NCBI GenBank assembly: GCA_018238545.1
Contig: JABCTC010000015.1
Coordinates: forward strand, 1 to 64,000
DNA from: Candidatus Heimdallarchaeota archaeon
Lineage (GTDB): Archaea > Asgardarchaeota > Heimdallarchaeia > Heimdallarchaeales > Heimdallarchaeaceae
Reading direction: 5' to 3'
DNA: 64,000 nt
How positions within the stretch are numbered: the first letter of the stretch is position 1; every line of letters starts with the position of its first letter. Shown here in pieces: positions 24,867 to 41,291 of this stretch. A program made the translations under genes and the position numbers. The notes under the pieces were generated by a model. It was not told the origin of the DNA and ran no database searches. It was given only the letters and a program-made list of their open reading frames with translations.

Positions 24867-25411
24867 TGAAGATGAGTAGAAAAGATAAACAAAATAAGAA
24901 TAAATCTATTGAAGAAAAACTAATTAAAGATTTAAGCTTAAAATTAGATACCACAGTTCATTATCAAAAGGAACGAAGGTTATGGATATCAATTAATCCT
25001 GATCAAATCGTAGAAACATGTTCTAAAGCGTATGAATTGGGCTTTGAACACCTTTCAACAATATCTGTTACAGATTGGTTAGATGAAGGTAAGCATGAAG
25101 TGACGTACCATCTTTGGTCTTATTCTCATAATCATCTACTAACAATAAAAACAAAAATAGATAGAAAGAAACCTATAATTTCCTCAATTAGCTCAATTTG
25201 GGGTGGCAATGCTGAAACCTGTGAACGTGAGTGTCATGAACTATTTGGCGTAAAATTTGAAGGTAATCCTAATCTTACTCCATTGTTTCTTGAAGATTGG
25301 GAAGGTCCCCCTCCATTTTTGAAAGATTTCAATTGGCGAGAATTTGTCAAGAAGGATATGTATGACCAAAATAATCCGAGAGAAAAAGTATACTTTGAGG
25401 TGAAAAAATGA
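24863..25411 (+). CDS. NuoC-like 30 kDa subunit
   Basis: A 182-residue protein of the respiratory-chain NADH dehydrogenase 30 kDa family. The C-terminal signature ERECHELFGVKFEGNP followed by LTPLFLEDWEGPPP is unmistakable. NuoC packs against NuoD and has no cofactor. The N-terminal 25 residues are lysine-rich and variable; several ATGs compete, and the one overlapping the preceding stop is listed, with another nine bases downstream. It overlaps both neighbours through ATGA, implying translational coupling and equal stoichiometry. Confidence 0.92.
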   Translation: MMKMSRKDKQNKNKSIEEKLIKDLSLKLDTTVHYQKERRLWISINPDQIVETCSKAYELGFEHLSTISVTDWLDEGKHEVTYHLWSYSHNHLLTIKTKIDRKKPIISSISSIWGGNAETCERECHELFGVKFEGNPNLTPLFLEDWEGPPPFLKDFNWREFVKKDMYDQNNPREKVYFEVKK

Positions 25412-26526
25412 CAAAAATAAAAGAACATAATGTGAACAGCGACTTCGCAATGAACTTCGGTCCAGCTCATCCAGGATCAGGAAATTTTGCAATAAAAGTT
25501 GAGATGCGTGGGGAACGAGTACTTAAAGCAACTGCTGATCCAGGATACCTTCACCGTGGGTTTGAAAAAATGATGGAATACCGGGAACCAATGCAAAATG
25601 CAGTTATGTCGGATCGAGTATGTGTTTTGGAACCATTACAATGGAATTTGGTTCATGCTGAAGCAGTTGATTATCTTATGGGTTATGAAATACCTGATAG
25701 AGCTAAACATATCCGTGTAATTCTTGCAGAGCTTTCGAGAATTCAGTCCCATTTCATTTGGTATGCTGTATTATCCTTAGGAACAGGTTTCATGACTGGT
25801 TTTAATGTCGCTATAGGATATAGAGATTATATCTTAGATGTTCTCAACCTAATCACTGGTGGGAGAGTCTATCCTGCAGGTTACATTTGTCCTGGAGGAG
25901 TTAGAAAAGATTTTCCAGAGAAAGCTGAAAATAAAATATTGGAACTACTTCCAAAAATTGACTACATGAGAAAATTCATGCTAAAAGAAAATCCAGCGTG
26001 GTTAGCACGTTTCAAGGATGTTGGCATATTAACAAAAAGGGAGGCTATTAAGTTTGGGGCAACTGGTCCAGTATTACGTGGAAGTGGAGTTGCATCAGAT
26101 GTGAGGCGTGATGATCCATATGAAATATATGATGAACTAGAATTCGAAATTCCAGTTATGGATGAAGGAGATGCTTATGCTCGTTTCAATGTTGGTATGC
26201 AGGAAATAGAAGAGAGTATGAAAATAATTACTCAAGCTATTGACCGAATACCAAAAGGGGAAGTTAAAACACCAAACCTCAAACCTACAGTAAAATTTCA
26301 ACAAGCTAAAGGAGAGATCTACATACGTAATGAACTATCTCGAGGAGAAGGTGCTTTTTATATGGTTGCAACAGGTCAGAAAACACCTTATAGGGTGAAA
26401 ATACGTGGACCCTCTTTTACCCATATGATTCCAATAGTTGAACATCTATTAACAGATGTAGATTATGCAGATGTACCTGCAATTTATTGGAGCTTATATC
26501 AGTGTCCCGCAGATGTAGATAGGTGA
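25408..26526 (+). CDS. NuoD-like / hydrogenase large-subunit-like protein lacking a full NiFe site
   Basis: A 372-residue member of the NuoD/hydrogenase large-subunit superfamily. MNFGPAHPGSGNF and DPGYLHRGFEKMMEYR are family N-terminal motifs. In [NiFe] hydrogenases two CxxC pairs hold the metals. Here the first pair reads CVLE (C72, E75) and the last reads CPAD just before the terminal DVDR (C366, D369). So two cysteines remain and two are acidic, between true hydrogenases (four Cys) and NuoD (none). A canonical H2-activating centre is therefore unlikely. ATGA overlap with the NuoC-like gene and a GGTG ribosome-binding site precede it. The substrate could be a quinone, another electron carrier or a different metal site. 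Confidence 0.88.
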   Translation: MTKIKEHNVNSDFAMNFGPAHPGSGNFAIKVEMRGERVLKATADPGYLHRGFEKMMEYREPMQNAVMSDRVCVLEPLQWNLVHAEAVDYLMGYEIPDRAKHIRVILAELSRIQSHFIWYAVLSLGTGFMTGFNVAIGYRDYILDVLNLITGGRVYPAGYICPGGVRKDFPEKAENKILELLPKIDYMRKFMLKENPAWLARFKDVGILTKREAIKFGATGPVLRGSGVASDVRRDDPYEIYDELEFEIPVMDEGDAYARFNVGMQEIEESMKIITQAIDRIPKGEVKTPNLKPTVKFQQAKGEIYIRNELSRGEGAFYMVATGQKTPYRVKIRGPSFTHMIPIVEHLLTDVDYADVPAIYWSLYQCPADVDR

Positions 26527-26527
26527 G

Positions 26528-26911
26528 ATGATAAAAATGAAATTAGGTATAATTAAAGAAGTATTCAAAAATGTCTTCACAAAACCAATGACAGTACTTT
26601 TTCCTTTTGAAAAAATTGAGATTCCAGAGCGGAATAGAGGCGAACATAGTTTTGACATTGATACATGCATTTCATGTGGAGCTTGCGCTAGAATCTGCCC
26701 GAATCTAGCAATAGAAATGATAGACGCGCCCCAGGAATTAAAAAAGAAGTATCCCAAAACCTATCCTCAGATAGATATAGGTAAATGTTGTTTTTGCGCA
26801 TTATGTCAAGATGTCTGTCCAAAAGGGTCAATTAAACTTACAACTAATGTTTTCTTAGCGACCTTTGATAAAGATGACACAGTAAGAAGTCCTATGTCAT
26901 GGAATAAGTGA
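26528..26911 (+). CDS. NuoI-like 2x[4Fe-4S] ferredoxin subunit
   Basis: A 127-residue protein with two tetra-cysteine motifs, CISCGACARICP and CCFCALCQDVCP, each suited to one [4Fe-4S] cluster. This is the NuoI/EchF pattern: an electron wire between soluble ferredoxin and the NuoB-like subunit. It starts one base after the NuoD-like stop and ends the cluster before a pyrimidine-rich terminator-like stretch. The second motif opens with adjacent cysteines (CCFC). Confidence 0.93.
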   Translation: MIKMKLGIIKEVFKNVFTKPMTVLFPFEKIEIPERNRGEHSFDIDTCISCGACARICPNLAIEMIDAPQELKKKYPKTYPQIDIGKCCFCALCQDVCPKGSIKLTTNVFLATFDKDDTVRSPMSWNK

Positions 26912-27628: not shown

Positions 27629-28888
27629 TCATGATATAGGGCGAAGACACTCTATACTCACTCTGAGTGGATACATCACGTATCCTCCTACCCCGTTCAC
27701 CTTGCGTTTAGGCAAGGCTTTCGGATCGCTTTTTATCAGAATATTATATGCAGCATTAACATCAGCATTGATCAAGTGGCCTTGAGCTGAACGAAACAGC
27801 CCTCGGTGGATTCTTTTCCCTTTGTAATTTTTCCGCTTTTTAGGGAACTCATTATCCAGGAAACTGCTTTTAGAGGTGTATTGTTCAGGAATCGTCTCAA
27901 CTTTTATCCCTCGTTCTGTTCCTTTGTATTTTAGCAAATCGATGATTTTCAAGAATGGGATGGTGACGAACATCTGGGTGGTTTTTTTCCAAAAATGCAT
28001 TCCTTGTTTCCATAGCTCATTATACCCTATCACCACTTCATGTAGCCCTCGTTCCACCCACAAGTCAACCAGATACTTGGTTAATTTGTGGATAGCATCG
28101 TTTAGCTTTTTTCTCCACTTTTCTTTGAGCTTATAGTAAGCTGGACCATATTTTAGACGATTATTCGATTGCAATTGTTTTCTCTGTTGCTGACTATACT
28201 GTAGTTGTAGTTTCTTCTGTTCTTTCAGATAATACTGTGTAATTGATTTTATCCCTTTCCCTGCGTCTTTGATAACAATCGGTCTTCCTCCGAGGTTATC
28301 CACGAAAGCGGCAAGGTTGTCCATCCCTAAATCCACAGCTCCTTTTCTGGTCAACTTTTTCCTGAGATTGGGTATACTCTTGAGATAAACAAGTTCAAGG
28401 GTATAGTGAGTTCTTCGGGGAATGATTCTTACTTCTCTTAACTCTGCTTGAGCTGTTAGCCTTGTCTTGTAAGTGTACTTCACTTTCTTAGGTAACACTA
28501 ACCATCCATTGACAATACGTGCTTGTTGATTGGTGAAGATAGCTACTACTTCCCCATCCTTCTTTTTGTAGTTAGGTGGATTAGGCATGGCAAAAAACAA
28601 TGTTGGGTTCTTCTTCCACTCTTGTTTCGCTCGGAAAAAGCTCTTCCAGGTTCTAGAAAGGAGTTTGAGAGTTTGTTGGGCAACATGAGCAGGAAGGACT
28701 CTGTAGCATTCTTCCTGTTTCAACTGTCTGTCAAGATCATAGTAAAAGAGAAGTTTACTTGTTTGCTTCAAGGAGGTTTTTATCAGAAAATTTGCCCAAT
28801 TATAGAGATTTTTTGCTTGATGACAGATTCTGCTCAGTGCTGGATGATACTCCACTTCTATACGCTCTGCTCGCAGTACCTTTGCCAT
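27629..28888 (-). mobile_element. tnpB: IS200/IS605-type TnpB (copy 1), stand-alone
   Basis: A 419-residue RNA-guided nuclease/OrfB protein. RuvC-I is GAVDLGMDNL and RuvC-III is INADVNAAYNI. The usual Glu of RuvC-II (hIE) is replaced by Gly-Tyr in VIGYNELWKQ; a Glu conserved between both copies lies in IPEQYTSK and may take its place. The four-cysteine zinc finger is absent; a KGKRIHRGLFRSAQG loop is found instead, as in a known Cys-less subgroup. No TnpA transposase is next to it. The gene is visibly richer in G/C than its surroundings, suggesting recent arrival. A guide (omega) RNA would be expected overlapping or following the 3' end, below 27629. Confidence 0.88.
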
Positions 28889-29685: not shown

Positions 29686-30465
29686 TTAATTTTTACTTAC
29701 ATTTTCTGCGACAGGAAAGTATGTGGGATAGATTAACTTGGCGAAATTTTGATATATTTCTACACTATAATCTTTTGTTTCAATAAGAGATTCTAGTTTT
29801 ACTATTTCTGATTCAGTATATCCTTTCATATCTGGAAATGATTCAGGATCACCATAATCTAATATCTTGACTACAAATTCATCTAGTTTAGTCAGCTCAA
29901 GATAGGATTCAATTATCAGATGAATATGTGGAGTTAGTTTCTCAATAATCTCTTCTTCCTTCACAGAATTTGTAATTCTAATTACTGAAAGAATAGCAGC
30001 TCTCTTTGTTATGTAATCTCGAGCATATGCTACATTTTTGAGCGGATATAAAACATCTACATCATCTAAGTATCCAATAGCTCTTATGGCGGCATATTGT
30101 AAATCATAACCACTTTCTTCGAGCATTTTGATGAGATAAGGTTTAGAATCATAATGTTTTAGTTTACCTAATACCTCTAAGATCGTTAGTTTAGTAGATA
30201 AAGAACTTCTTTCAACGAGATCATGTAGATGAGTTAAAACCTCTTTCTTTGATTCTGGGTATTTGGAAGTAAGAAATAGTATAGAAGAAGCTGCAGCATT
30301 TCTCACATTCCATTCCGAATCTTCTAACAGCGGTAGTAGTTTTTTTACTGTTTTTGCTTTACCCTTAATCTGTTGAAATAATGCAAAGTGAACTCTGTCT
30401 AATGGAATCTCACTTTGTAATTTTTTACCCATGCCTAATCCTTTAAGGAAATTCTCAACACTCAT
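29686..30465 (-). CDS. HEAT-repeat protein, last gene of the MoxR-VWA operon
   Basis: A 259-residue protein of repeated helix pairs. Repeats of 30-35 residues are visible, for example VKKLLPLLEDSEWNVRNAAA, THLHDLVERSSLSTKLTILE and PYLIKMLEESGYDLQYAAIR, with the Asp-Val-Arg type turn of PBS/HEAT scaffolds. It would hold partner proteins and has no catalytic motif. The start overlaps the preceding gene's stop by four bases (ATGA), so it is translationally coupled to the zincin-like protein and belongs to the five-gene operon running down from 35616. Confidence 0.85.
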   Translation of the reverse strand: MSVENFLKGLGMGKKLQSEIPLDRVHFALFQQIKGKAKTVKKLLPLLEDSEWNVRNAAASSILFLTSKYPESKKEVLTHLHDLVERSSLSTKLTILEVLGKLKHYDSKPYLIKMLEESGYDLQYAAIRAIGYLDDVDVLYPLKNVAYARDYITKRAAILSVIRITNSVKEEEIIEKLTPHIHLIIESYLELTKLDEFVVKILDYGDPESFPDMKGYTESEIVKLESLIETKDYSVEIYQNFAKLIYPTYFPVAENVSKN

Positions 30466-32042
30466 AATTCAAACAGTCCTTCTTTTATTAGATACGCAAT
30501 TGCACCTCTTTGTGGTTGGGTCAATTTGCGTAAATAAGTATAATCAACATTGCTCACATCAACCTTATCTTCAGATTCTTCATCTAAATCAAATTTGTAA
30601 GCGTCTTTTCTTTTAGTTACTTGAACAGCTCTTGTTACAACCGGTAAATTATACGGAGACAGAGGTTGATGTTTTGTTTTATGAACAGCGAATAGTGTTG
30701 AAACGTGAATTCCACCAATCTTCTTGAATACAATTACATCAGCAAATGCAGGAAGAATCGTCTTGAAATCATCCCTGTACAGTGCCATATGGTTATGAAG
30801 TATAACAAGTTGATCTATTCCTATTCCATAATCATTAACTTCAAAAACATATACTTTCTTTTGATCAACTTTGACATAGCCTTTGGATTCTATTCTTGGT
30901 TTTTCATCTTGTAGCTGACCGAAAGTTGAAAATTTCTTTCTATATACCTTTCTAGTATATTCATCAATGATTTTCCAACCATATGCATAAACAGACCAGA
31001 TATCTGTCCATCTACTTCGTGTAGAGTGCCATTTCTCAACAACACCTTCAGAATGCAGATTTTTATTTACCGCAAGCAAATCCTTTACTTCGTCCCAAGT
31101 GAATTCTTCCAACAGATTAATATCTGATTTATAATTGAATAGTTTGCTGAAAAGCTCTTTTTCATTTTCAACTTTGGTTTCAAGCCTTCTTATTACAGCT
31201 AAACTAAATTCACCAATGGGAGGAGCTAAAAATGATTTCAACTCATTTGGTAATTTTGGTTCTTTATCCTCAACACTTTTCTTGAACTCATAATCGCCTG
31301 ATTTTATAAGATATTCAATGCCTTTTGCTTGAACATAATGTGCAAAACCTTCATCAATTAGCTCATGCAGATGCTTTTTCCTTGATACTTTTGCTCTTTC
31401 AGATAGATAGTTTATAGCTTCAATTGAAAAATTATTGAATAGAGTATATTTTCGTGCAATTTCAGGAGGGATGTAAAAATCTTCTACACCAGCTTCGGTG
31501 AACAATCTAATTACACCAATTAAATCTTGGAAATATTGCCATGCCCAAGCATGTCCATCAGATGATTCTTTGTTTAATTGAAAAACATTGTTTGTCATTA
31601 ATTCCTTCAGAACAGTGTCTATCTGATAAAGTCTTGAGAGTATTTGTGGTGAGTTTGACTCAGTTTTTTCATTCATGTAAGCATGAGCAAAGGCATGAAT
31701 TAGCATTACTCTAAGAGTGAATTCCTGTTCTTTGTTAAGTTCATAAGAAGGAGCTGAAAGATAAATCAAAGTAGGTAGAGAATTATAGATTGTTTCTTTT
31801 CCAACTGGCAAGAAATCGTTTATACGAGCAGACTTAAGATGAGTTATTTGTTCAGCCGTCAAAATAGCTTGTGGGGTACCAGTTATTTCAATAACTCTAT
31901 TTACCGAAACATGCAAATCTGGGTTAACAAAAAGCAATGCACGATAGTTTTCAGGAGTTTCGCCTACGAGAGCTTTGAAATCGTCTCTTGCCAAATTATA
32001 AACTCGGACTATCTCATCAAATTCAGTTTCTGTTTTAAGCAT
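30462..32042 (-). CDS. Zincin-like protein with altered active site (HxxxH, no catalytic Glu)
   Basis: A 526-residue cytoplasmic protein of no recognised family. LIHAFAHAYMNE (H116, H120) sits in a helix as HExxH does in zincins, and a later HELIDEGFAHYV (Glu231) resembles the gluzincin third-ligand helix. If this is right, zinc ligands H, H and E are kept but the catalytic Glu of HExxH is Ala, giving a metal-binding pseudo-peptidase. A beta-rich C-terminal part (about 380-526) follows. Its start overlaps the VWA stop by eight bases and its stop overlaps the HEAT start, so it is a fixed member of the operon. The zincin reading is inference from motif spacing. Confidence 0.6.
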   Translation of the reverse strand: MLKTETEFDEIVRVYNLARDDFKALVGETPENYRALLFVNPDLHVSVNRVIEITGTPQAILTAEQITHLKSARINDFLPVGKETIYNSLPTLIYLSAPSYELNKEQEFTLRVMLIHAFAHAYMNEKTESNSPQILSRLYQIDTVLKELMTNNVFQLNKESSDGHAWAWQYFQDLIGVIRLFTEAGVEDFYIPPEIARKYTLFNNFSIEAINYLSERAKVSRKKHLHELIDEGFAHYVQAKGIEYLIKSGDYEFKKSVEDKEPKLPNELKSFLAPPIGEFSLAVIRRLETKVENEKELFSKLFNYKSDINLLEEFTWDEVKDLLAVNKNLHSEGVVEKWHSTRSRWTDIWSVYAYGWKIIDEYTRKVYRKKFSTFGQLQDEKPRIESKGYVKVDQKKVYVFEVNDYGIGIDQLVILHNHMALYRDDFKTILPAFADVIVFKKIGGIHVSTLFAVHKTKHQPLSPYNLPVVTRAVQVTKRKDAYKFDLDEESEDKVDVSNVDYTYLRKLTQPQRGAIAYLIKEGLFEL

Positions 32043-33420
32043 GCATCATACTCTCCCTTAAAATTTGTTCTCCCAGCTTCTTTATTTGAGCAGGATCGAT
32101 GAGAATGGGTCGTGTTATACCCTTCAACATCTGTTTTGTGTGAATGAACAACTCCTTATTACGTAGAGATTCAGTTCCCATAAGGAAATAAGAAATGTTC
32201 CAATTTCTTGTTCTATCATTTTTAAGATGTTTGAAAATCCCATTGAGTTGAATCAAACAATCTATTGTTTCTGGTTTCGTTTTGGTTTGAATTTCAGAGA
32301 AGTATTTCTGCAACTCCTCATTTTTCCGATAATTATATGGAAAAGTAGGAACATTGGGCATACCGTCTGTAACTATTGTGAAGTATACATCAATATCTTT
32401 ATCCACACGTTGTTTTTTTGCGTGATCAATAGCAGTCTGAACGGCTTGAACCATGTAAGTCTTACCCTTTGCGTCAGCTGTTAGAAGGTAATTTTCCATT
32501 TTACTGTCATCATCAACGACAGTTGGGTTCTTTCTAACAGGAACTACGGCAAGTTTGAACATGTCAAATCTTTTCCTTTTTCGACGATTCAGTATTTTAA
32601 AGTAATAGTATAGACTTAAACTAGTTAAGAGGGCCCCATCTAGCCTTGACATTTTACCTTCAAAAACAGCCTTCTTCATAGATTGACTCATATCTACAAT
32701 AAGATACACAAGTGATCGTCTATCTTTTTTCACACGAATTATATCTTCCTGTTTAACAGAAGTTGGTGGTATATTTTGAGAACTCAAAATTGCGCTTTTA
32801 TAAGTCTCTCTAAGTCTTATTGTGCCCCTAGGTCTCTTTTGTACTTCATCGATAGGTGCTACTGATATTTGTTTTAAAAGAAAACGACCAAGAATCTTTC
32901 CAAGCAAATCCATAACACTTTCTCTAGAAATACGCTTCTTCCTACCAAAGGCATCGGTTATTTCAATGTCTATTATCTCTTGTAATTGGTTGAGTTTTTC
33001 TGCTAACTGATCTAAATCAACAGATCCTTCATATTTAAGATTACGAAGCAGATCTTGTATATACTTGAGAATTTCTTCTAGAGTTTGTAGCTCATTACGA
33101 TTTACTCTTTCCAATACATCTGGTAGAATCCTATCACCCATAAACCGTAGAATTTTGAGTTCGTTTAGCAAGCGTTCTTCTTCTGGAGCTGTCAAATATG
33201 TTGTCATTATCTTCTGAACAATATTCTCCATCGCCACAGCATTTTTTGCAGCAAGAGAAAGAACTGCTCCTTCACGAGAACTTCTTCCTAAATGAGGATT
33301 ACGCCATAACCTAAGTACTTGAGCAGCATCTTCAAAATCTAAGATGAATTCAACGTCTCCATATGCTTGAATAGGATCAGTGAATTCTTCTGCTGTTATG
33401 AAATTTATTCTATGGGGCAT
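32035..33420 (-). CDS. VWA domain protein, partner of the MoxR ATPase
   Basis: About 461 residues. A long helical N-terminal half (about 20-200) precedes a von Willebrand A domain with a complete MIDAS: IVDMSQSM (Asp-x-Ser-x-Ser, near residue 243) and a later TIVTDGMPN Asp. In MoxR-VWA pairs the VWA protein binds Mg2+ and presents substrates to the AAA+ ring for remodelling. The reading frame extends seven codons upstream to an ATG at 33441, but the ATG at 33420 has GGAG eight bases before it and is preferred. It follows the MoxR gene closely and overlaps the zincin-like gene. Confidence 0.88.
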   Translation of the reverse strand: MPHRINFITAEEFTDPIQAYGDVEFILDFEDAAQVLRLWRNPHLGRSSREGAVLSLAAKNAVAMENIVQKIMTTYLTAPEEERLLNELKILRFMGDRILPDVLERVNRNELQTLEEILKYIQDLLRNLKYEGSVDLDQLAEKLNQLQEIIDIEITDAFGRKKRISRESVMDLLGKILGRFLLKQISVAPIDEVQKRPRGTIRLRETYKSAILSSQNIPPTSVKQEDIIRVKKDRRSLVYLIVDMSQSMKKAVFEGKMSRLDGALLTSLSLYYYFKILNRRKRKRFDMFKLAVVPVRKNPTVVDDDSKMENYLLTADAKGKTYMVQAVQTAIDHAKKQRVDKDIDVYFTIVTDGMPNVPTFPYNYRKNEELQKYFSEIQTKTKPETIDCLIQLNGIFKHLKNDRTRNWNISYFLMGTESLRNKELFIHTKQMLKGITRPILIDPAQIKKLGEQILRESMMHA

Positions 33421-33454
33421 GTTATTATCTCCAATGGGCACTAGAAATGCCTGT

Positions 33455-35002
33455 TTAGATGTAATCTACTCTCAACAATTGCTCGTAAGATGGTCTAAGA
33501 CTCTCAATAATTGTTGCTCGAATTTTGTCTTTGTATTTATCTAAACCTTCAAACTTTACAATCAAATCTGCTAATTCATTATCACTTAATGCCTTCATCT
33601 TTGAAATATCTTCAGAGATATCTTGTACACTTATAGAAACTTCCGATTCTTTTATAGATGTTCTTAGTAGAATCTTGATTTGTTGAAGAGCATCATTGAG
33701 CATCGAAACTGGTATATCATAAGCATTCATTGTACTACGCAGCTTCTCTAAAGTTATGACATTGACATCTGTAGCTGTTTCTCTAGCTTGCAAAAGCACT
33801 GTTTCACCGATGATATTGTTCATAGTACGTAAATCGATGTGAGGATTTCTTTGTGGATCATGAATTTCATCAAGACCAGAATAGAAATCGGTACGTGCCA
33901 TACGACTTTCTGAACGAATGTCCTTTGATTTTAGGTTGCTAGGTAAAGAATTATTTCCAAGATACGCAAGAAAATCTACTGCAAGTCTGCTAACAAAATC
34001 TGTAGTGTCTTTTTCCAATTCATGTAATTGAATAATGGAAGGATTTGCTGTGATTTTTTTACTTGAAAGAACAATCTGCTCTTCAAACATATCGCGTATA
34101 ATTTGTTCTCTACTTTCAACAGAACGTGCGGGCCACAGTACTTCAGGAATACGATTGATAATAGGTTGACTTTCTTCTCCAAAGACGGTTAATGGCGCGT
34201 TAGATGTGAAGATTACAGCTCCATCAATGTAAACTGGTTCTCCTTGGATATTGTATTTAATACCCATTGGTTCTTCGAGAAAACCCATCAATGATTCTAA
34301 TAGTGTTAAGGGGAGCCTCTGAATTTCATTTACAACTAATATACCATGGGAAAGAACGCCTACCTTATGCGAAGTAGCGGCATAAGTAGTCTGAGTTTCT
34401 TTGCCAAACAACTCTTCTAAGTTTTCGACACCAGCAAGTAACATATAGAGACTTTCAGGGTCATTTCTTGGATCAAGTTGCGCTCTTCGGACTAGTGTTT
34501 TTGTTGCTTCAAGTTTTCCTAGCCTACTTACTACTTCTTTTGGAGAAATTTCAAGTATACTATTTGTATTATCTAATTGTACAGGACTACCTTCATCAGA
34601 CAAAATACCTTCGATTTTTTGTCTGCAGTAAGGACATAGAGATTGCATAACTCTAATTCCAGCAAAAGGATTTGATGGGAAGTTATTGATAATATCTACA
34701 ATGTATCCAGCGTCTTCTAGGAATGGACAACCACCGATGTGATATTTGTTGTTGTTGATTTCTCTAACGATATGGTCAAGCAACACCCTTGCAAAAAGAG
34801 TTTTGGCTTCACCTGTTGGACCTGTGATTAAGACTTTACCACCAACAGCTAATTTATCCATAACAAGTTTTTTTCCAATTTCATTACCACGAACAGTAAC
34901 GTCTTTAGAAACTCTATCACGGAACTCTGGATTCATCAATATTGAACGGACAGAATAACCAGAATAACCATCCTTCATTATATTTCCAATTGAAATTGTC
35001 AT
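33455..35002 (-). CDS. MoxR/ChlI-type AAA+ ATPase
   Basis: A 515-residue AAA+ protein. Walker A is GPTGEAKT (61-68), the GxxGxAKT form of MoxR proteins. Walker B reads ILVVNE (221-226) with Asn for the first Asp, a form I recall from a chelatase-like branch with INELPDL. Sensor 1 is FTSNAPL and an arginine-bearing segment IINRIPEVLWP follows. Between Walker A and B is an insert with cysteines (C92, and the pair CPYC at 123-126) that may bind zinc. MoxR ATPases with VWA partners act as chaperones for metal insertion or complex assembly. It starts 17 bp after the Arf-like gene. Confidence 0.88.
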   Translation of the reverse strand: MTISIGNIMKDGYSGYSVRSILMNPEFRDRVSKDVTVRGNEIGKKLVMDKLAVGGKVLITGPTGEAKTLFARVLLDHIVREINNNKYHIGGCPFLEDAGYIVDIINNFPSNPFAGIRVMQSLCPYCRQKIEGILSDEGSPVQLDNTNSILEISPKEVVSRLGKLEATKTLVRRAQLDPRNDPESLYMLLAGVENLEELFGKETQTTYAATSHKVGVLSHGILVVNEIQRLPLTLLESLMGFLEEPMGIKYNIQGEPVYIDGAVIFTSNAPLTVFGEESQPIINRIPEVLWPARSVESREQIIRDMFEEQIVLSSKKITANPSIIQLHELEKDTTDFVSRLAVDFLAYLGNNSLPSNLKSKDIRSESRMARTDFYSGLDEIHDPQRNPHIDLRTMNNIIGETVLLQARETATDVNVITLEKLRSTMNAYDIPVSMLNDALQQIKILLRTSIKESEVSISVQDISEDISKMKALSDNELADLIVKFEGLDKYKDKIRATIIESLRPSYEQLLRVDYI

Positions 35003-35019
35003 TGTATTTTCCTCTTATT

Positions 35020-35616
35020 TTATTGATTATTTTCTTCTTCTGAAGGAAATTGAACTTTAATAGGTTGTATTTTTTCTAATAATGCTTCTTTTTCTTCCCA
35101 AGGTTTAATGTAACCCATATGGATTACTTTTTTCATCCATTTCAGAGATTCAATTAATGAATCTACGTCTGGAACCTCAAAAAGGTTCCATATACGATCT
35201 GTTAAACGTATGAGAGACATATTTTCTATTAATTCTCCTCTAGTCAAAGCTCCTTGTAAGTCAGTATTGTAAGCACAGACTGCTATAGGAAGATCGTCTA
35301 CTTCCTCGTCCCAAATAATTTTTTCCCAGAAATAATTACGCTCATGTTTAATCATTTCTTCTTTCGTTGCATCAATAAGATAGAGAATTCCTTCAAAAGG
35401 GATAAATTGTTTAGGTGCGAATTTTAGCTTTTCAGCATATGGAAGTTCATTCAAACAGCTATCAATGATAAATTCATTTAAAGAAGTATTAGAACGCATT
35501 AGCAAAACACGGTTGCGAGTTGCTGGAAGGTTGTTTCCCATAACCAATACCGATGTTTCAGGATAGCCAAGCTTTCTACGAATAGTTTGAAATGTTCGTT
35601 GGATGAAGTTAGTCAT
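35020..35616 (-). CDS. Arf-like pseudo-GTPase, first gene of the MoxR-VWA operon
   Basis: A 198-residue protein. The second half follows Arf/Sar small GTPases: a strand FEGILYLIDATKEEM (Arf: GLIFVVDS), a helix with NYFWEKIIWDEEVDDLPIAV, the G4 region AYNTDL where Arf has ANKQDL, then ALTRGELIENMSLIRL and a closing helix SLIESLKWMKKVI (Arf: LYEGLDWLSN). The first half lacks the P-loop (GNNLPATR stands in its place) and the WDxGGQ switch II. G4 has lost Asn and Lys but keeps Asp. It should therefore not bind or hydrolyse GTP normally and may be an adaptor. It shares an A/T-rich promoter region with the divergent Nudix gene. Confidence 0.72.
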   Translation of the reverse strand: MTNFIQRTFQTIRRKLGYPETSVLVMGNNLPATRNRVLLMRSNTSLNEFIIDSCLNELPYAEKLKFAPKQFIPFEGILYLIDATKEEMIKHERNYFWEKIIWDEEVDDLPIAVCAYNTDLQGALTRGELIENMSLIRLTDRIWNLFEVPDVDSLIESLKWMKKVIHMGYIKPWEEKEALLEKIQPIKVQFPSEEENNQ

Positions 35617-39344: not shown

Positions 39345-41291
39345 ATGAAAGTAAGAAGAATTTTAGGATTTATTCTAATATTATATCTTACTTTAAATGT
39401 AAATGTAATAAAAACCAATAGAACAAATCTCGTTCTTCTAAAAATTGATAATCTCCAAACTCAGAGCAATGAACTAACAATATCACTTCAAACTAGTTCA
39501 CTAATTTTAGATGATGACTCAGATTTCATCGCTCTTAACTTACCCGGAAGTGGAACAGAGGGAGATCCTTATGTAATAGAAAACTATCAAATATCCACCA
39601 CCGATAGAGTACCAGGCATTGATATTCGAAAAACAACAAAGCATTTCATTATTCGAAATTGCAAAATTGAAACCGATAGCTGGGGTATTATTGTTAGTGA
39701 AATAGCACCAAATACAGCTTCAATCATGAACAATGAATTGCTAAATAATGATTACACGGCGATTAGTGTCTACAAATCCCCTGGAATTACAATCTCTAAT
39801 AATAATTTTAAAAATAATGATGAAGCCATATTGTTAAAAAAATCAAGCTATTCAGTTATTAGCAATAACTCATTTGAAGGAAATTGGGCTGCATTAACCA
39901 TATCTGGCACAGATTCATGTAATATAGAAAAGAACTTCTTTACTTCAAACGTAAACTCAATGAGTATTACAGCAGTTACAGATTTTATTATCAAGGATAA
40001 TGTACTTTTGAATAATACAAGAAATGGAATAAACCTATATTCTTCAGATAATACTTTGGTTTTGAATAATACATGTAGTGATAGTGGATGGCAAGGAATC
40101 CTAGTACGACAGTCACTATTTGTTACATTAAACGACAATTCTCTTACTAATGACGGTATTTTGATAGATAATTATTCAGCAGAATATGGTAGTCTCTCAA
40201 ATAATCAAGTCAACTCTAAAATTCTTGGTTTTTTCAACAATAAGGATGATTTAGAAATAACGGATCCTATTTATGGTCAGTTAATTCTTTTAGATTGTAA
40301 AAGGGGATATATTACTAATCAAATTCTATCAAATGCAAGTGTAGGCATCACACTCTACAATAGTGAGAAAACTATCATTATCAATAATACTTGTAATAAT
40401 AATGATGGTGATGGAATCAAAATTTATGATTCAGATGAATGCTTAGTTAGTAACAACACTTGTATTAATAATGAAAGAGGAATTAGTATTGCCAACTCCA
40501 ATTATTGTAATGTTTCGAAAAATGCCTTGGTTGGAAATTGGCAGAGCATAGAATTTCAACATTCAAATTCAGGCGAGATTAACTTTAACAAGTGTTTACT
40601 AAACAAAAACCATGGAATAACGGTGATGTATTCAGAATCTTTTTTTGTGAACAATAACAATTGTTCAGATAACCATAATATAGGCATTCAAATAATAGAT
40701 TCAAGATATTTTGTTGTGGCTAATAATTCATGTATAAACAATAATAATGACGGAATTTACGTCCCAATAGCAAGCTATTGCATTATCTACAACAATTTCT
40801 GCAAAAATAACACAAATGGCATATATGTTGGTCATTCTGGAGAAAGCTGGATACCTGAATATGTGCCTCCACCCCCAGCTGCATATTTTGAAATAGTTGC
40901 AAATCAGCTTCAAGAGAATAGAGAATACGGAGTTTATCTTGATCGAATGACAGAGGATAACAATATTCACCACAATTCATTTGTCAATAATAGTGAGGAA
41001 GGAATAGCACAAGGGTATGATAGTGGAGAGGGGAATATATGGTTTGATAAAAAGACAAATGAAGGCAATTATTGGTCTAATCATAATGGAGTTGGAACGT
41101 ATAAAATTGCAGGAGAAGCTAATTCAATTGACCAATACCCATTAATAGAGCCAAAAAATATAGAAATGCCAGAGATTCCATCAAATTGGACAACTTACCG
41201 TACTAAATTAAATCCGCAAATAATATGCATAGGAATAGTAGCATTAGTATTATTACGGCGCAGAAAATCAAAGATTAGCAAAGAAATATAA
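39345..41291 (+). CDS. Secreted right-handed beta-helix (NosD-like) surface protein
   Basis: A 648-residue protein with a signal peptide (about 5-22), a long parallel beta-helix body and a C-terminal membrane segment (about 625-640) ending in RRRKSK. The body shows repeated 22-25 residue coils with Asn ladders: NSFEGNWAALTISGTDSCN, NTCSDSGWQGILVRQS, NTCNNNDGDGIKIYDSD and more, the PbH1 pattern of NosD and archaeal surface proteins. GSGTEGDPYVIENYQIS is a typical start of such domains. Such proteins bind or process polysaccharides, or build the cell surface. No catalytic site is evident. It precedes TnpB copy 2. Confidence 0.85.
   Translation: MKVRRILGFILILYLTLNVNVIKTNRTNLVLLKIDNLQTQSNELTISLQTSSLILDDDSDFIALNLPGSGTEGDPYVIENYQISTTDRVPGIDIRKTTKHFIIRNCKIETDSWGIIVSEIAPNTASIMNNELLNNDYTAISVYKSPGITISNNNFKNNDEAILLKKSSYSVISNNSFEGNWAALTISGTDSCNIEKNFFTSNVNSMSITAVTDFIIKDNVLLNNTRNGINLYSSDNTLVLNNTCSDSGWQGILVRQSLFVTLNDNSLTNDGILIDNYSAEYGSLSNNQVNSKILGFFNNKDDLEITDPIYGQLILLDCKRGYITNQILSNASVGITLYNSEKTIIINNTCNNNDGDGIKIYDSDECLVSNNTCINNERGISIANSNYCNVSKNALVGNWQSIEFQHSNSGEINFNKCLLNKNHGITVMYSESFFVNNNNCSDNHNIGIQIIDSRYFVVANNSCINNNNDGIYVPIASYCIIYNNFCKNNTNGIYVGHSGESWIPEYVPPPPAAYFEIVANQLQENREYGVYLDRMTEDNNIHHNSFVNNSEEGIAQGYDSGEGNIWFDKKTNEGNYWSNHNGVGTYKIAGEANSIDQYPLIEPKNIEMPEIPSNWTTYRTKLNPQIICIGIVALVLLRRRKSKISKEI

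Follow-up and report, generated by a model that had tools for sequence, protein, structure and literature searches.

An operon of Heimdallarchaeia in which an Arf-like protein without nucleotide-binding motifs accompanies a MoxR-like AAA+ ATPase and a VWA protein

Work on Asgard archaea that addresses the origin of the eukaryotic GTPase and membrane systems usually proceeds via their active GTPases; described here is an operon in which an Arf-like protein without nucleotide-binding motifs stands next to an AAA+ ATPase and a VWA protein. The operon lies in a 64,000-nucleotide stretch of DNA, which was analysed as a whole and is called the window, and consists of five open reading frames, all on the minus strand between 29686 and 35616; the small gaps and stop/start overlaps which a preliminary description had attributed to it are all seen at these coordinates.

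35020-35616, minus strand: gene 1, pseudo-Arf, 198 amino acids (Pfam Arf, 7e-7)
33455-35002, minus strand: gene 2, MoxR-like AAA+ ATPase, 515 amino acids (weak AAA+ matches and motifs)
32035-33441 by the first GTG, 32035-33420 by ATG, minus strand: gene 3, VWA protein, 468 amino acids from the GTG
30462-32042, minus strand: gene 4, zincin-like protein, 526 amino acids (no family; His-His-Glu triad)
29686-30465, minus strand: gene 5, HEAT-repeat protein, 259 amino acids (Pfam HEAT_2, 4e-13)

Genes 1 and 2 are 17 bp apart and genes 2 and 3 13 bp (34 bp with the ATG start), and genes 3 and 4 overlap by 8 bp and genes 4 and 5 by 4 bp. As most orthologues start with MPHRI, the VWA gene probably begins at the ATG at 33420. 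Several of the domain assignments have weak scores, backed by motif conservation. Scans with sigma-70-type promoter and terminator models, which are unsuited to archaea, gave nothing above chance. The window further contains the following genes, together with a second protein of the TnpB's cluster further along.

25408-26911, plus strand: complex I 49 kDa-like (1e-68) and ferredoxin-type subunits, approximately 3 kb downstream of the operon and convergent with it
27629-28888, minus strand: IS605-type TnpB (OrfB_IS605, 3e-12; Cas12f1-like TNB, 8e-11)
39345-41291, plus strand: beta-helix/NosD-like protein, 648 amino acids

Whether the five genes belong together can be judged from their distribution. 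Of 228 Asgard genomes, 40 gave a profile match to the AAA+, all from a single class, Heimdallarchaeia, and the gene 4 and VWA profiles retrieved the same 40; an extra VWA match in a 41st genome (G072) belongs to a chelatase in which AAA and VWA are fused, and not to an orthologue. The AAA+ was not found in families f5 and f7 of the class (f and g labels are anonymous GTDB family and genus groupings), in the other Asgard classes sampled, or in G008, G033, G047, G048 and G050, several of which are incomplete. A scan of 84,980 species genomes, which used short exact peptide patterns and is thus informative for close relatives only, as remote ones would be missed, yielded 40 loci, all Asgard or titled 'archaeon', including Ca. 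Heimdallarchaeum endolithica, RS678 and a Kariarchaeota genome; for Ca. Heimdallarchaeum endolithica the genome is complete, under CP084167.

In every locus on a long enough contig the order AAA+, VWA, gene 4 and HEAT is intact, and it is conserved over five GTDB families of the class while the flanking genes change between families: f1 loci are bordered by NUDIX, threonine-dehydratase-like and cysteine-synthase-like genes, those of f3 by FKBP, ParB-like and RNA polymerase genes, those of f6 by an actin-like and a Roadblock-like gene, and those of f4 by nuoC/D-like, PPDK-like, S10-like and membrane protein genes (several of these names come from sequence reading only). It is chiefly this linkage, persisting against changing neighbours, that speaks for a functional unit. 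The operon genes have dN/dS values of approximately 0.02-0.21, with dS saturated for distant pairs, and the evolutionary distances between them correlate at 0.97-0.99, a value obtained without a control and mainly due to shared species history. Genomes with the operon have one copy of it, and the 1.4 Mb genome G035 keeps all five genes. Because AAA+, VWA and gene 4 recur in the same 40 genomes and in the same order under purifying selection, the arrangement is far beyond chance; distribution and selection together show a system of housekeeping type which is inherited vertically and present as a single copy in Heimdallarchaeia. The dedicated module with conserved gene order that the preliminary description proposed thus recurs across the class in five families. 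Of the opposite outcomes which it had considered, a MoxR-VWA pair that is always alone was not encountered, the pair never being alone and the other genes being present where contigs permit checking; separation of the five genes in relatives applies to the pseudo-Arf, which has moved away in three lineages, but not to AAA+, VWA, gene 4 and HEAT, which stay together wherever the contigs are long enough.

Some neighbours recur more locally. In f2 and f3, an FKBP-type isomerase with a membrane segment and a Cys-rich tail is encoded beside the operon or close to it (L079, L082, L083, L084, L086, L087, L097), and uvrB-like and uvrC-like genes, named by sequence reading, follow downstream at most loci of the window's genus (L059:15983-19833 and syntenic loci). 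NuoC/D-like genes related to the complex I-like genes of the window occur near the f4 operons and not at other g1 loci. At five f6 loci, a Roadblock/LC7-like gene lies 150-400 bp after the HEAT gene on the same strand.

L089:15507-15908, same strand as the HEAT gene: Roadblock/LC7-like (Pfam, 7e-6)
L090:15517-15927, same strand: Roadblock/LC7-like (Pfam, sub-threshold)
L093:15751-16161, L094:15512-15913 and L095:6550-6960, same strand: putative Roadblock/LC7-like (the Pfam scan covered L089 and L090)

The AAA+ protein had been introduced as a MoxR ATPase, an assignment which its Walker A, catalytic Glu and sensor 1 sustain, but which does not extend to the Pfam family or to a canonical Walker B DE. 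Its Pfam matches are weak (Sigma54_activat, 2e-5; AAA_5, 0.045); AAA_3/MoxR (PF07726) was matched by none of 14 orthologues, and a PF07726 search of the window's genome returned seven other copies, the operon AAA+ not being among them. Canonical MoxR genes of PF07726 are numerous in this genome and its relatives, with 3-14 matches per genome. In an alignment of 43 rows, Walker A (GPTGEAKT at 61-68, with minor variation among orthologues on a GxxGxAKT pattern), the catalytic Glu and the sensor-1 Asn are invariant or nearly so (41-42 rows), and sensor-1 N268 and the candidate arginine finger R284 are conserved in every complete row. Walker B reads VVNE, with the catalytic E226 preceded by Asn225 instead of Asp in 42 of the 42 rows with letters; as this replacement is found in every orthologue, ATP hydrolysis may be weak or absent. 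The Walker A of Asgard MoxR, GxPGxAKT, is similar, and hhalign aligned the AAA+ moderately with Asgard MoxR, at a probability of 74% (E 2.7e-5), once the insert had been removed, the full-length protein aligning over the Walker A stretch alone (62%) and one chelatase being matched more weakly (0.02). The assignment can thus be taken no further than a MoxR-like, divergent AAA+ outside the Pfam MoxR family. Weak MCM-like Foldseek matches were discarded and not used for classification, because the structure model (pLDDT approximately 30 over the core) is too poor. The insert, at approximately 84-180, carries Cys92, Cys123 and Cys126, a triad which is all-or-none among orthologues (CCC in 38, SSA or SSS in three, of genus g5). 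In two g5 genomes with the Cys-triad-less AAA+ (L088:9353-9934 and L091), the gene directly preceding that of the AAA+ codes for a small protein with CxxC pairs.

The VWA protein consists of a helical N-terminus followed by the C-terminal VWA domain. VWA_2 matches the window protein at 0.0017 and 10 of 14 orthologues, at best at 6e-5, and VWA_CoxE matches two, at best at 2e-4. All complete rows have an invariant MIDAS, DxSxS (250-254), T273 and D359, numbered from the GTG at 33441, which together with the VWA_2 matches upholds the original naming; domain scans of the orthologues found no effector domains on this protein.

In known MoxR/VWA pairs, ATP hydrolysis is coupled to binding of a target by the VWA protein via its MIDAS (PMC13036017, PMC9976466, PMC7159879), and in NorQD a finger of the VWA protein enters the AAA+ pore, with the MIDAS required for target activity and not for NorQ binding (PMC13036017, PMC9976466). 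The operon has in common with NorQ/NorD, RavA/ViaA, CbbQ/CbbO and CoxD/CoxE the adjacent AAA+ and VWA genes, the intact MIDAS, an N-terminal region ahead of the C-terminal VWA and a GxxGxAKT-type Walker A, which is also that of Asgard MoxR; unlike these pairs, it has an AAA+ outside PF07726 with the Walker B Asn and a long insert that bears Cys residues, it adds three further constant subunits, and no target enzyme is linked to it. By analogy, we lean towards reading the operon as the genes of a dedicated MoxR/VWA-type machine which remodels proteins at the expense of ATP and has constant accessory subunits. The AAA+, in which Walker A, catalytic Glu, sensor 1 and arginine are intact, would form a ring and hydrolyse ATP, and, following NorQD and RavA-ViaA, would pull or twist its VWA partner, the MIDAS of which would grip an acidic residue of the substrate, while the pseudo-Arf, zincin-like and HEAT proteins would choose, hold or position this substrate. 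The latter would most likely be a lineage-specific protein complex; neither a substrate gene nor a metalloenzyme gene is consistently linked to the operon across the loci.

Among the accessory subunits, gene 4 has no Pfam, NCBIfam or PDB relative, and searches of phages and plasmids gave nothing real; TusC-like NCBIfam matches in four to five members were not reproduced in the members that were rescanned, and no assignment is drawn from them. Its AF2 model (pTM 0.82) finds no PDB match at E < 0.001 with Foldseek and one viral model at 1.2e-4 (TM 0.34). Gene 4 shares with gluzincin-type metalloproteases an HxxxH and a distant Glu (H116-AFA-H120 and E231) which co-vary as a triad, and is unlike them in that Ala replaces the catalytic Glu, the triad is gone in two families, and family and fold matches are missing. 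All three residues are found jointly in 28 orthologues, which belong to f1, f4 and f6, and every full-length f2 or f3 sequence is without at least two of them. No orthologue has HExxH, the motif being HAxxH, HSxxH, HVxxH or HTxxH at best, and f2 and f3 no longer have the His pair. As the triad is common to f1/f4 and f6, which are of different orders, its distribution suggests that it is ancestral. An initial rejection of the zincin assignment, due to the His loss in some families, was revised because the triad co-varies; a metal site is likely from this pattern and the zincin fold is a candidate only. Zincin-type ligands minus the catalytic Glu would make gene 4 a putative pseudo-protease, so that of the altered zincin first described the metal-ligand triad is supported and the fold, with no Foldseek match, stays a candidate. 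The HEAT gene is directly downstream of gene 4 and always last, a conserved position.

The two triads could alternatively belong to a metal-cofactor insertase or activase like NorQD, CoxDE or Mg-chelatase, in which the Cys triad and the His-His-Glu protein would relay metal to a target opened by the AAA+/VWA pair. Although the all-or-none Cys92/123/126, the co-varying gene-4 residues, the insertion of metals by known MoxR/VWA pairs (PMC13036017), and the complex-I 49 kDa-like gene approximately 3 kb downstream in the window and nuoC/D-like genes upstream in f4 speak for such a function, we regard it as unlikely: each triad has disappeared from some lineages which keep the whole operon, making neither metal site indispensable, nuo-like neighbours are absent at other loci of the window's genus, and no metalloenzyme is consistently linked. 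A general link to complex I-like genes was rejected, as these are in the window and near f4 loci and absent elsewhere in the genus.

The Arf ancestry of gene 1 is clear. The Pfam match, which is above cut-off, covers the C-terminal half only, where the profile also matches Arl1/Arf1 structures at 1e-9; with Arf/Arl GTPases of eukaryotes and Asgard archaea the protein thus shares the sequence of this half, and, unlike them, it is set in an AAA+/VWA operon and is without P-loop or positional NKxD. The P-loop GxxxxGK[S/T], which canonical Arfs of the same class do carry, is in none of approximately 45 orthologues, and NKxD is missing at the G4 position in the orthologues, regex matches in three being at other positions, in agreement with the pseudo-GTPase originally named. 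A conserved patch, SLIRLTDRxW...FE, aligns with the Arf alpha4/beta6 region outside the nucleotide pocket, and dN/dS of 0.06-0.21 (dS saturated for distant pairs) indicates purifying selection and not a decaying pseudogene. On sequence grounds, this Arf lost nucleotide binding early in the history of Heimdallarchaeia and has been maintained by selection, and it is probably a fixed-state protein-binding module and not a switch; the pseudoGTPases of p190RhoGAP (PMC5593906) are named among its closest known comparisons. Docking at membranes, as initially suggested, was not borne out as a conserved trait: the amphipathic N-terminus is seen only in the window's own genus, and a tether via such a helix was rejected as weak.

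In f1, f6 and most of f3, the pseudo-Arf gene precedes that of the AAA+. It is detached yet present in f2 (G023), detached in g5 of f3 (G024, G030; in G026 inverted with two genes between), and approximately 5-6 kb beyond the HEAT gene in f4 (G025, G027, G029). Of the 40 genomes with the AAA+, 39 contain it, and in the 40th (G005) the contig is cut inside the AAA+ gene; it is also present in three genomes without a detected AAA+, in two of which (G048, G050) the contig ends at the pseudo-Arf, and in the third (G033, 63% complete) a short contig has no AAA+ gene after it. In view of the detachment in three lineages, the pseudo-Arf could also act outside the machine.

Arf ancestry, conserved residues in the alpha4/beta6 region instead of the nucleotide pocket, and the Roadblock/LC7-like gene near the HEAT gene in all five f6 loci reaching that far are consistent with a small-GTPase regulatory module, in which the pseudo-Arf would mimic one Arf state and recruit GTPase regulators or effectors for remodelling or recycling by the AAA+/VWA pair. 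This appears improbable, however, with the Roadblock linkage confined to one genus, no active GTPase gene linked and the amphipathic N-terminus not conserved.

The nearest published design found is that of the bacterial MoxR-vWA ternary systems, especially iSTAND (Kaur et al. 2020, PMC7159879), which share with the operon the AAA+/VWA pair and an inactive NTPase subunit. In the ternary systems, the VWA protein is fused to variable effector domains and one genome often holds several systems, and Asgard archaea are absent from the main text of that study (PMC7159879). Unlike iSTAND, the operon has a pseudo-Arf instead of an inactive STAND and no effector domains, and unlike the bacterial ternary systems it is neither variable nor multi-copy and is vertically inherited in archaea. 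A conflict or defence system of their kind, for which the addition of an inactive NTPase to the MoxR-vWA pair in iSTAND speaks (PMC7159879), is disfavoured and very improbable, given the missing variable effectors, single copy, vertical inheritance and strong purifying selection, PADLOC matches restricted to weak HEAT and TRIP13 ones, and relatives not found in viral contigs.

Going beyond the remodelling machine that we favour, we tentatively raise the possibility that the dead Arf and the dead zincin are the dedicated substrate receptor of a Heimdallarchaeia-specific AAA+/VWA machine that consists largely of pseudoenzymes, a small-GTPase fold having become a structural part of a MoxR-type chaperone. 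A literature search, which covered mainly openly accessible papers, found no paper which joins Asgard with MoxR and VWA, or Heimdallarchaeota with von Willebrand factor and AAA+, and within the literature searched the operon appears undescribed. As a defined, expressible and single-copy set of five proteins, it makes complex formation and target directly testable. The operon shows that an Arf without nucleotide-binding motifs has been retained under selection beside an AAA+/VWA pair, and Arf counts in Asgard genomes include such non-switch proteins.
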